DNA from: Amylolactobacillus amylophilus DSM 20533 = JCM 1125
GTDB lineage: Bacteria; Bacillota; Bacilli; Lactobacillales; Lactobacillaceae
Direction: 5' to 3'
Assembly (NCBI RefSeq): GCF_001936335.1
Contig: NZ_CP018888.1
Location: forward strand, 1,302,001-1,366,000
DNA: 64,000 bases
Shown: positions 24,713-42,097 of the stretch, piece by piece
Layout: every line of letters begins with the position of its first letter
Position numbering within the stretch: the first letter of the stretch is position 1
Translations under genes and position numbers: made by a program
Notes under the pieces: model-generated
The model's input: the letters and a program-made list of their open reading frames with translations, nothing else
Databases searched by the model: none
Told to the model about the DNA's origin: nothing

Positions 24713-24721
24713 CACAAAATT

Positions 24722-24760
24722 CTCCTTAGTTTTTTATTGTGGGGTGGTTACGAACCACAG
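24722..24760 (-). promoter_or_regulatory. preQ1-I riboswitch controlling queT translation
   Basis: On the minus strand TGTGG (24759-24755) pairs with CCACA across a short loop, followed by the A-rich ATAAAAAACTAAGGAG tail; this matches the compact preQ1-I class, whose tail folds back as a pseudoknot. AAGGAG is at once the end of the aptamer and the queT ribosome-binding site, so ligand binding would hide it. Control is therefore inferred to be translational, shutting off QueT when preQ1 is ample. Confidence 0.87.
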
Positions 24761-24879
24761 TGTGATAACTTGACCTATTTTACAGAAATTTAACAAAACT
24801 GCAAGTTCTCACAGAATCATCCTACAAGAAACCGCTTTTTCCGTTATACTAGTACTAATTGAATTGATAGGAGTTAATA

Positions 24880-36424: not shown

Positions 36425-36787
36425 GGGGGTGTTTTGGAATTCGACAGGCGTAGATTTGCGCTAATCGCGCTTCGTAGGTCGCGTCTACGTTAAAACGCTC
36501 AGTTAATCATAACTGCAAACAATGATAATTCATACGCATTAGCTGCTTAATAACCAGTTAGCGTGATCCAATCTGGCTTGCCCGGCGCTAGAATTGGGTC
36601 TCAAAAATACGGGCTACGGTCGTCTCTTTCCACCTGCAAGAACGAACAGAGATCATCAGGTTAGTGCGAGCAGGGGAGCCCTGTTATACGGCGGACTGCT
36701 CGTGCGAAATTCTAAATAGTATAACTATGAGTGTAGAAGTTAGCGACAAAATGCGTTTGGACAGGGGTTCGAACCCCCTCACCTCCA
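36425..36787 (+). ncRNA. ssrA: Transfer-messenger RNA (tmRNA)
   Basis: tmRNA rescues stalled ribosomes with SmpB. The 5' GGGGGTG pairs with CACCTCC near the 3' end (acceptor stem, then discriminator A); the T-arm sequence GGGGTTCGAACCCCC is present, and TTTGGAATTCGACAGG is the conserved 5' D-like region. The resume frame at 36515-36550 reads ANNDNSYALAA then stop, a proteolysis tag of the Lactobacillales kind ending in ALAA. The CCA end is not encoded. About 363 nt, standard size. Confidence 0.96.
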
Positions 36788-36793
36788 TTATCG

Positions 36794-38802: not shown

Positions 38803-39768
38803 ATGGAACCAATTTTTTTAGCACCATATTTTCAGAAGAAGATTTGGGGTGGGCGCAAGCTTGAAACCCAATTTAACTATGATATTCCTGCTGGTGATAT
38901 CGGTGAGGCGTGGGTAATCTCGGCACATCCCCATGGCCCAAGCACGATTTTAAATGGTGCATTGAAAGGGAAGACCCTAGATGTAGCCTACAAGGAGAAT
39001 CCTGAGTATTTCGGTAACCCGAAGGAGCCAGTATTCCCGCTATTAACGAAGATTCTAGACGCGAACGACAGCTTATCGGTTCAGGTACATCCTGACAACG
39101 AGTATGCCCGAATTCATGAGGGCGAGCTCGGCAAGACCGAATGCTGGTACGTGTTGAGTGCAGAGCCGGGCTCATACCTAATCTACGGCCATCATGCGAA
39201 GACTAAAGCAGAGCTCAAGGAGATGATTGAATCTGGTGATTGGGACCATTTGTTAAGAAAAGTTCCCGTGAAGAAAGGTGACTTTTTCTACGTTCCAAGT
39301 GGCACCATTCACGCCTTAACTAAGGGAATCGTTGTGCTCGAGAGTCAACAATCAAGCGACACGACTTATCGGCTATATGACTATGACCGGGTTGACGCCG
39401 TCACCGGTGAGAAGCGGGAACTGCACTTACAGCAATCGATTGATACAACGACTGTACCAGCGACGGATCCGAAGCTAAACATCGTGACTACTACTCAAGG
39501 TGAATCTAAGGTGACCGAATATCTGCAGCCCCCCGTCTCACCATTCTTCTATGTTGATAAGCTGGACGTGGTCGATGAGCTGCAGCTGAGCCGAGGAGAA
39601 CACCCTTATGTGCTCGTTTCGATTATTGATGGCGCCGGCCAATTAGTGGTCGACGGCCAGCAGTTTGGGCTCAAGAAGGGAACGAACTTCATCATTCCTA
39701 ACCAAGTGCACGATTACACGCTCACTGGTCAGATGGCCGCCATTCTTTCTGCCCCAGTGGAGAATTAA
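38803..39768 (+). CDS. manA: Mannose-6-phosphate isomerase, class I
   Basis: ManA interconverts mannose-6-phosphate and fructose-6-phosphate, feeding glycolysis or GDP-mannose synthesis. 321 residues of the short bacterial type I form: PYFQKKIWGGRKLE at the start, zinc ligands in SVQVHPDNEYA and GKTECWYVL, GDFFYVPSGTIHALTKG with metal-binding His, and QSSDTTYRLYDYDR with active-site Arg. ATG follows GAGGTG. Confidence 0.95.
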   Translation: MEPIFLAPYFQKKIWGGRKLETQFNYDIPAGDIGEAWVISAHPHGPSTILNGALKGKTLDVAYKENPEYFGNPKEPVFPLLTKILDANDSLSVQVHPDNEYARIHEGELGKTECWYVLSAEPGSYLIYGHHAKTKAELKEMIESGDWDHLLRKVPVKKGDFFYVPSGTIHALTKGIVVLESQQSSDTTYRLYDYDRVDAVTGEKRELHLQQSIDTTTVPATDPKLNIVTTTQGESKVTEYLQPPVSPFFYVDKLDVVDELQLSRGEHPYVLVSIIDGAGQLVVDGQQFGLKKGTNFIIPNQVHDYTLTGQMAAILSAPVEN

Positions 39769-39770
39769 TT

Positions 39771-39799
39771 TTGGTAAAAATTTACTAATCAAGTATACT
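39771..39799 (+). promoter_or_regulatory. Sigma-A promoter before the two-component operon leader
   Basis: TTGGTA, exactly 17 nt, TATACT. Expected transcription start about 39805-39808. Confidence 0.65.
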
Positions 39800-39802
39800 G
39801 AT

Positions 39803-39870
39803 TTAAAGAGAACAAGGACCGACTTGCGATGCCGGAACACAATTCTTTAGTGCATCAGTGTACTTTTTTT
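39803..39870 (+). ncRNA. Candidate structured leader/small RNA ending in a terminator
   Basis: Downstream of the promoter, TAAAGA (39804-39809) pairs with TCTTTA (39844-39849); inside, CCG/CGG can form a small hairpin. GTGCA (39850-39854) pairs with TGTAC (39859-39863) around a 4-nt loop and is followed by seven T residues, a short intrinsic terminator. For readthrough from manA an alternative 11-bp stem (39792-39802 with 39854-39864) can form instead. Either an attenuator of the following two-component genes, the manA terminator, or a small RNA. Not a class I recognise. Confidence 0.55.
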
Positions 39871-39910
39871 GTTGGCGCGATTAATGCTTTGAGCTAGATA
39901 GGAACGAGTA

Positions 39911-40624
39911 ATGAGAATATTAATGGTTGAAGACGACAATTCGGTGGCCACAATGATGGAGATGTTCTTTCAGAAGGAGCAGTGGCAGTTAGATGTAGCA
40001 GCAGATGGCCAACAGGCAATCGACATGTTCAAGACGAAGCAGGACGAATACGACATGATTACGCTCGACCTCAATTTGCCCGGGAAGGATGGGATGCAGG
40101 TGGCGCGGGAGATTAGAGCCGTCTCTAAGGCCATTCCCATCATCATGCTTACGGCCAGAGACTCGGAGTCGGATCAGGTACTTGGCCTAGAGCTTGGTGC
40201 AGACGACTACGTCACAAAGCCCTTCAGTCCGATGACCTTGATTGCCCGCATCAAGGCTTTGCACCGGCGCGCAGAATTGACCGAAACCGAGACACAAGAA
40301 CAAGAAACGAGTGGTGAATACGATGTGCAGACAAACCACCTGAAGATTAGCCAAAGACTCCGGGAAGTCTTGTTCGACGACCAGGTCGTTGAAGGACTGA
40401 CGCCAAAGGAGTTCGATCTGCTGCTAACGATGTCCCAAAAGCCAAAGCAAGTCTTCTCGCGCGATAAGCTCTTAGAGCTAGTCTGGGGTTACCAATACTT
40501 TGGCGAGGAGCGCACGGTTGACGCCCATATTAAGAAGCTCCGGCAGAAGCTCGAGAAGGTTGGGCCCCAGGTCATTCAGACGGTGTGGGGAATCGGTTAT
40601 AAATTTGACGATACGGAAGTTTAG
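39911..40624 (+). CDS. OmpR/PhoB-family response regulator
   Basis: 237 residues: receiver domain (1-120) with acidic pocket VEDDN, phospho-acceptor Asp53 in ITLDLNLPGKDG, Thr in MLTARDS and Lys in YVTKPFSP; then a winged-helix DNA-binding domain (about 140-235: LTPKEFDLLLTMSQKPKQVF, RTVDAHIKKLRQKLE). ATG follows AGGAACG. The histidine kinase begins three bases after its stop. Stimulus and targets unknown. Confidence 0.93.
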   Translation: MRILMVEDDNSVATMMEMFFQKEQWQLDVAADGQQAIDMFKTKQDEYDMITLDLNLPGKDGMQVAREIRAVSKAIPIIMLTARDSESDQVLGLELGADDYVTKPFSPMTLIARIKALHRRAELTETETQEQETSGEYDVQTNHLKISQRLREVLFDDQVVEGLTPKEFDLLLTMSQKPKQVFSRDKLLELVWGYQYFGEERTVDAHIKKLRQKLEKVGPQVIQTVWGIGYKFDDTEV

Positions 40625-40627
40625 TAG

Positions 40628-42097
40628 ATGAAATTAATCTATCAACAGATGCTGGCTTTTTTCTTTATTATCATCACCAGTGCGGCGATCATTGGCTATT
40701 CGGTCCTGAGTTTCGCCAGTGAGCAGGCGTATGATTCGACTTTTGCCAGACTCGAGGGTTACGCCGATTCACTCGGTGAGCTCGCTTTAGCGAGTGACGG
40801 TCAGCTTGATGCGCACTTCTTAGATGAGCTGCAAATCGTGATGAAGAACGACGATGTTAGTCTGCGTGTCTTCGATGGTGATAATAACCAAATCTATCCG
40901 GCCTCAAAAACGAATTGGCAGTTACCGAAGAACATCTGGAATACACTGCAATCTGGCCGCAGCATCCACATCAAGAACGACCACCAGAACGAGCACAGCC
41001 TCCGGGTCTCAAACAAGGAGGCCTATTCTGGTGTGATGGTTCCTTGGCGTCACGGTGACTCGTTGATTGGCGTCGTTTGGCTTGGTGCGAAGGTAACGAA
41101 CATCGAGGCACCGGTCAACATGGCGAAGAATAATCTGGCTACGGCGCTATTGATTACAATGATTGTTGGGCTTATTTTGAGCTACTTCCTGGCCTACTTC
41201 ACGGTCAACCGGATTAATCGCTTGAGTAGGGCAACGAAGAAGGTTGCGAGCGGGGACTTTGATGTCCAGTTGGCTCATAAGGATCGCGATGAGATTGACG
41301 AGTTGGCGACGGACTTTAACTCAATGGTGCAGTCGCTGCGTAAGTCGAACGAGGAGATTGCACGCCAGGAGGAGCGGCGCAACCAGTTTATGGCGGATGC
41401 TGCCCACGAGATGCGGACGCCATTGACGACGTTGAATGGCATTCTGGAAGGCCTGCAGTATGATGCTATTCCCGAGGAATCTAAGGGCAAAAGCATTGAA
41501 CTGATGCGTAACGAGACCAATCGGTTGATTCGACTCGTGAATGAGAATCTGGACTACGAAAAGATTCGCAACAACCAGATTCTGCTGTTCAAGACGGAGT
41601 TCGACAGTGTACCGGTGACCCACGATATTCTCACCCAATTGCGGCAAAAGGCGCAGGAAACCGGCAATGAATTGGTTTATGAGGGTAGTGAATCAGCTAA
41701 TGTGTTCGCTGACAAAGATCGCTTCACACAGATCATGTTTAATTTGATTCAAAATGGCCTCCAGTTCACGCAAAACGGGCAGGTACGTGTGGGTGTAAAA
41801 CGAGCTGAGGAGCAGCATGCGACGATTTTCACCGTGGCTGACAACGGCATTGGGATGGATAAATCTCAGATGCACTTTATCTTCGACCGGTTCTATAAGG
41901 CGGATCCGAGCAGGAAGAAGGCTGGTACGGGAGAGTCTGGCCTTGGCTTGTCGATCGTTTCCTCGCTCGTACAACAGCATGGCGGTAAGATTGATGTCCA
42001 GAGCAAAGTAGGTGAGGGCACAACCTTCACGGTCACCCTCTACGACGACGGCTTTCAACAATATGTTGACGCAACGACGGGTAACCAACAAAAGTAG
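40628..42097 (+). CDS. Sensor histidine kinase
   Basis: 489 residues: membrane helix (about 8-28), extracellular sensor (about 30-165), second helix (about 172-195), HAMP (about 195-250), HisKA with His260 in DAAHEMRTPLTT, and HATPase_c with N box QNGLQFT, G1 DNGIGMDK, F box FDRFYKAD and G2 GESGLGLSIV. Partner of the preceding regulator. The sensor region shows no known domain; ltaS and wall genes nearby make envelope sensing plausible but unproven. No ribosome site is evident between the genes. Confidence 0.93.
   Translation: MKLIYQQMLAFFFIIITSAAIIGYSVLSFASEQAYDSTFARLEGYADSLGELALASDGQLDAHFLDELQIVMKNDDVSLRVFDGDNNQIYPASKTNWQLPKNIWNTLQSGRSIHIKNDHQNEHSLRVSNKEAYSGVMVPWRHGDSLIGVVWLGAKVTNIEAPVNMAKNNLATALLITMIVGLILSYFLAYFTVNRINRLSRATKKVASGDFDVQLAHKDRDEIDELATDFNSMVQSLRKSNEEIARQEERRNQFMADAAHEMRTPLTTLNGILEGLQYDAIPEESKGKSIELMRNETNRLIRLVNENLDYEKIRNNQILLFKTEFDSVPVTHDILTQLRQKAQETGNELVYEGSESANVFADKDRFTQIMFNLIQNGLQFTQNGQVRVGVKRAEEQHATIFTVADNGIGMDKSQMHFIFDRFYKADPSRKKAGTGESGLGLSIVSSLVQQHGGKIDVQSKVGEGTTFTVTLYDDGFQQYVDATTGNQQK

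Follow-up and report, generated by a model that had tools for sequence, protein, structure and literature searches.

The 142-base gap between manA and a downstream two-component operon (39769-39910) probably holds an intrinsic terminator for manA whose hairpin carries, within its 5′ arm, the promoter of the pieRS-like operon. RNA polymerase arriving from manA would transcribe both arms of a 20-bp hairpin and stop at the U-tract, whereas polymerase starting at about 39806 would leave the 5′ strand of the outer 12-bp stem untranscribed because its −10 box and part of the discriminator lie there. Without the outer stem the strong hairpin could not form, and transcription would go on through the two-component genes. 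Two transcription units would then be kept apart by the same bases: the element would block manA RNA and be largely blind to RNA begun inside it.

Positions are those of the window, the whole 64,000-nucleotide stretch that was analysed, which belongs to a 1.61 Mb genome of a lactobacillus-like family (G+C 43.6% over the 1.6 Mb read). The flanking genes and the elements of the gap are given in Table 1. PieR and PieS were the best-matching NCBIfam models for the regulator and the kinase, both with scores under the NCBIfam cutoffs, and the pair is called pieRS-like here rather than assigned to PieRS. Beyond the kinase gene, on the opposite strand, lies a lipoteichoic acid synthase-like gene. The gap is not a simple one, just as the initial annotation of this DNA had it: promoter, hairpin and T-run are all present and interlocked. 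No second copy of the element was found in the genome, which speaks against a repeated or mobile element with terminal repeats, and no near copies were found in the plasmid records or viral contigs searched. An Rfam 15 covariance-model search of 39700-40000 gave no meaningful match, permissive settings included. The only Rfam matches within the window lie outside the gap: a tmRNA gene (36425-36790, plus strand, 176 bits) and a PreQ1 riboswitch aptamer (24720-24764, minus strand, 48.5 bits).

Table 1. Features of the manA/regulator gap and its flanking genes (window positions)
Feature	Position	Strand	Basis
manA, class I mannose-6-phosphate isomerase, upstream gene	38803-39768	+	NCBIfam TIGR00218, 205.9 bits against cutoff 116.2
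−35 box TTGGTA	39771-39776	+	consensus scan; whole-promoter PWM score 10.95
5′ arm of long hairpin (outer 39791-39802, inner 39803-39810)	39791-39810	+	RNAfold; inverted repeat I1
−10 box TATACT, 17-nt spacer, within 5′ arm of terminator hairpin	39794-39799	+	consensus scan, PWM
Shine-Dalgarno-like AAGGA of possible leader ORF	39814-39818	+	sequence
Possible 22-codon leader ORF MPEHNSLVHQCTFFVGAINALS, ATG 39829 to TAG 39897	39829-39897	+	weakly above chance
3′ arm of long hairpin (inner 39843-39850, bulge 39851-39853, outer 39854-39865)	39843-39865	+	RNAfold
Short 6-bp hairpin AGTGCA-TCAG-TGTACT, remaining in promoter-started RNA	39849-39864	+	RNA folding, −3.9 kcal/mol alone
U-tract, seven T, common to long and short hairpins	39864-39870	+	sequence
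OmpR-family response regulator, PieR-like, downstream gene	39911-40624	+	top NCBIfam match PieR, 293.8 bits, below cutoff 450
Sensor histidine kinase, PieS-like	40628-42097	+	top NCBIfam match PieS, 413.9 bits, below cutoff 850

The predicted long hairpin and the putative promoter in its 5′ arm

In manA RNA the gap is predicted by RNAfold to form a hairpin of 20 bp, 12 outer and 8 inner, with a 3-nt bulge and a 32-nt inner loop; its energy is about −21.0 kcal/mol and seven T follow directly. An 11-bp stem with one G·U pair between AGTATACTGAT (39792-39802) and ATCAGTGTACT (39854-39864) had been described initially; it is present, but the pairing is longer than was stated and this stem is one part of the 20-bp hairpin. 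Two features of an intrinsic (Rho-independent) terminator, a stable hairpin and a U-tract directly after it, are found in the predicted fold, with an inner loop longer than usual. Among the terminators called in gaps across the genome the hairpin belongs to the strongest fifth (20% cut −20.7, median −15.1), and hairpins at least as stable as −21 kcal/mol ahead of a U-tract arose in 9 of 600 dinucleotide shuffles of the gap. Its absence from the listing of a simple consensus scan is explained by the limit of that scan to loops of 3-8 nt. The hairpin starts 22 nt past the manA stop codon and, by ordinary footprint estimates, should be clear of a ribosome terminating there. A manA terminator is also to be expected at this place, since manA in the congener G001 ends with an ordinary terminator-like hairpin. 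One further pairing was seen in the growing RNA: within window 39755-39853 the manA 3′ end is predicted to pair with 39831-39853, reaching about −20 kcal/mol when the RNA ends at 39858. Before the 3′ arm has been fully transcribed this pairing would compete with the terminator, and a translating ribosome would block it. Given the 32-nt inner loop and this alternative fold, termination may be incomplete.

The promoter proposed initially, a well-spaced TTGGTA-17-TATACT (39771-39799), holds up as a sequence feature. Its PWM score is the highest in the gap, where the runner-up reaches 5.5, leaving it the sole good promoter there. Set against the best score of each gap genome-wide it falls between the 80th and 90th percentile, which is good and unexceptional; scores of at least 10.9 were reached in 20 of 600 dinucleotide shuffles of the gap, and terminator and promoter of this strength occurred together in none of the 600. 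By the simple consensus scan alone (9 of 12 matches) the promoter is not outstanding, because 10 such sites were found against 7.4 expected in 6 kb. The further claim that the promoter lies inside the left arm of the stem is right for the −10 box and the discriminator but not for the −35 box, which sits in a separate small hairpin (39771-39788). From the spacing, transcription is predicted to start at about 39806.

Direct repeats are common binding sites of OmpR-family regulators, and a near direct repeat, ACTAATC (39784-39790) and ACTGATT (39797-39803), is found around the −10 box. The repeats could on that account be a site at which the response regulator binds to control its own operon, with the hairpin as a by-product, but this is highly improbable: the repeat spacing is 13 bp rather than the usual 10-11, and the arms of the inverted repeat are separated by about 50 nt and run exactly up to the seven T, as they would in a terminator.

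Predicted RNA from the nested promoter and the possible leader ORF

RNA begun near 39806 would lack the outer 12 bp of the stem whatever its exact start, because the −10 box is in the 5′ arm, and the earlier proposal that the long stem is confined to RNA arriving from manA is borne out on the same ground. Blocking 39791-39802 costs 11 kcal/mol in the predicted fold, and RNA starting at 39804-39806 as a whole reaches no more than −10.6 and keeps a 6-bp hairpin in front of the U-tract. This short hairpin ahead of the seven-T run, also described initially, is present (6 bp, 39849-39864). At −3.9 kcal/mol it is weaker than the cut-off of −7 used for calling terminators, which makes read-through into the regulator gene likelier.

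The initial annotation saw in the two folds an attenuator or else a free small RNA, and neither reading is supported, the RNA of the nested promoter keeping just this weak hairpin. The folds do exclude each other, as had been said, but they cannot act as an attenuation switch, since both abut the same U-tract. With one U-tract shared between them, the long stem is the stronger terminator and not an antiterminator, and an attenuator that uses the 11-bp stem as its antiterminator is ruled out. Attenuation of another kind would have most RNA from 39806 end at the short hairpin, with a signal such as translation of a leader ORF setting the read-through. It would be consistent with the retention of the 6-bp hairpin and seven T in the short RNA, with a possible leader ORF that is preceded by AAGGA, spans the hairpin and U-tract and stops 13 nt short of the regulator gene, and with a competing fold of similar energy in which GAUGC (39828-39832) can pair with GCAUC (39852-39856). 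It is nevertheless unlikely. A leader-peptide attenuator has a strong terminator in the RNA of its own promoter, and the hairpin found here has just the −3.9 kcal/mol given above; promoter-started RNA cannot use the 11-bp stem for antitermination; and the leader ORF contains no run of regulatory codons.

The leader ORF is itself a candidate and not established. In 251 co-directional gaps of 100-300 nt, 5 similar ATG ORFs were observed against 1.55 expected from shuffles, and one of the 5 resembles a real ribosomal-protein-L30-like gene overlooked by the simple gene caller; such numbers weigh against attenuation by leader translation as well. If the ORF is translated, it would aid read-through: ribosomes on it would cross the weak hairpin and further favour transcription into the regulator gene.

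A free small RNA of about 65 nt, started at the nested promoter, ended at the T-run and targeting other RNAs, would fit the distance from promoter to T-run, but it is very unlikely. Its 3′ hairpin would be the weak one of −3.9, it has no Rfam match even with permissive settings, it is not conserved in the other family genomes examined, and the possible ORF runs across its end. Both a free small RNA and a regulated attenuator are thus less likely than a manA terminator with the operon promoter nested in it.

The locus in relatives and nesting elsewhere

None of the other genomes compared has this gap. In G001, the only congener compared (65% complete), the regulator has no match and the kinase distant matches only, and beyond the terminator-like hairpin that closes manA lies a sugar-kinase-like ORF on the opposite strand. 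Among the regulator loci read, manA stands just upstream of the regulator in one genus only, g37 (18 genomes; L113-L128, L130, L136), and in these 18 genomes an SdpI-like coding sequence extends to the regulator start. The one g37 manA-sdpI junction that was read completely is that of L003, the same genome as L123; no terminator is seen along its series of manA, SdpI-like ORF and regulator. No significant match to the SdpI-like protein was found in the present genome, and the comparison suggests that a formerly closer arrangement of manA and regulator was split here. A separate observation concerns genus g16, in which two genomes (L002 and L005) have in common a long, similar, structured-looking leader with GCCGG/CCGGC elements in the roughly 150 nt before the orthologous regulator; this leader is unlike that of the window.

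The tight succession manA-sdpI-regulator in the 18 genomes of g37 also bears on another explanation: the promoter could be a chance match, and the two-component genes could be reached by transcripts from manA that pass a leaky terminator. Such transcripts would be possible likewise in g37, with its order manA-sdpI-regulator-kinase, and the promoter score, lying in the 80th-90th percentile range given above, is compatible with a chance match. Against it are the lack of a significant sdpI match in this genome, the −21 kcal/mol terminator standing between manA and the regulator, and the scarcity of promoters this strong in shuffles (just 20 of 600), and we consider this explanation rather improbable.

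Whether such nesting recurs was addressed with a genome-wide scan of 159 gaps with a strict terminator, using the mirrored motif as control. The −10 box of the best promoter lay in the 5′ arm or loop in 10 gaps against 8 in the control at a score of at least 8, and in 3 against 1 at a score of at least 10. Enrichment of nested promoters over the mirrored control is therefore not clear in these 159 gaps, and the nesting between manA and the regulator could be accidental. Two individual further cases look convincing. First, in the gap between mannose PTS EIID-like and DUF956-like genes (G000:1375157-1375244; locus L262) a promoter is nested in a terminator. At the same place in G001 (L290) the −10 box also overlaps a terminator, where the loop passes into the 3′ arm, and the stem sequence is unrelated; the best promoter comes after the terminator in 13 of the 20 other genomes with a detectable terminator in this gap. 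This one further locus supports the view that overlaps of this kind are tolerated or favoured in the genus. Second, in the gap between queA-like and tgt-like genes (G000:303998-304091; locus L232) a promoter TTGACT-18-TAGTAT has its −10 box inside a terminator-like hairpin. By eye no nested promoter was seen in 29 other stretches upstream of tgt, and G001 has no tgt match. It is conceivable, if doubtful, that nested terminators are a recurrent device in the genus (manA/pieR, EIID/DUF956 and possibly queA/tgt), stopping foreign RNA and blind to their own, with the addition here of a leader ORF that keeps the weak hairpin open. The genome also contains a 20-bp inverted repeat with TATAAT inside it (G000:656761-657126), ahead of a serine-recombinase-like gene and beside a mobilisation-like gene; the site appears to belong to an integrated mobile element.

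Known gene boundaries and the meaning of the arrangement

The closest comparison is with the frd-ampC boundary of E. coli, where, as summarised in PMC6045580, the frd terminator is also the ampC attenuator and the ampC promoter lies within the last frd gene. In that summary as here, one intrinsic hairpin stands between two co-directional units, the first unit has its terminator in front of the gene that comes next, and the downstream promoter overlaps the end of the upstream unit. The difference is in the order of the elements: the ampC promoter, as described there, precedes the hairpin, so that ampC RNA holds the whole hairpin, meets it and is attenuated, whereas in the present gap the 5′ arm (39791-39802) contains the −10 box (39794-39799) and RNA of the downstream unit would be without the strong hairpin. 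In Burkholderia the nlpD1 terminator doubles as penA attenuator (PMC6045580). There too the terminator of an upstream gene directly before a downstream gene limits read-through, but penA is co-transcribed with nlpD1 and that account describes no native promoter within the hairpin. Gaps with a terminator and then a promoter in tandem, as upstream of DUF956 in most relatives, likewise stop one unit and start the next, though with two separate elements, and in the manA/regulator gap these share bases. A narrow literature search turned up no published account in which a promoter sits within the 5′ arm of a terminator, and no strong claim of novelty is made for the arrangement.

Judged from the DNA alone, the arrangement appears to be an economical, modest variation on known designs of gene boundaries, and its practical weight is modest. 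It cautions that a promoter followed by a T-run need not signify a small RNA or an attenuator. If the explanation given here is true, a promoter placed within a terminator does not defeat itself, as a start within the 5′ arm removes the hairpin, and one shared stretch of DNA can separate two transcription units in a small genome.
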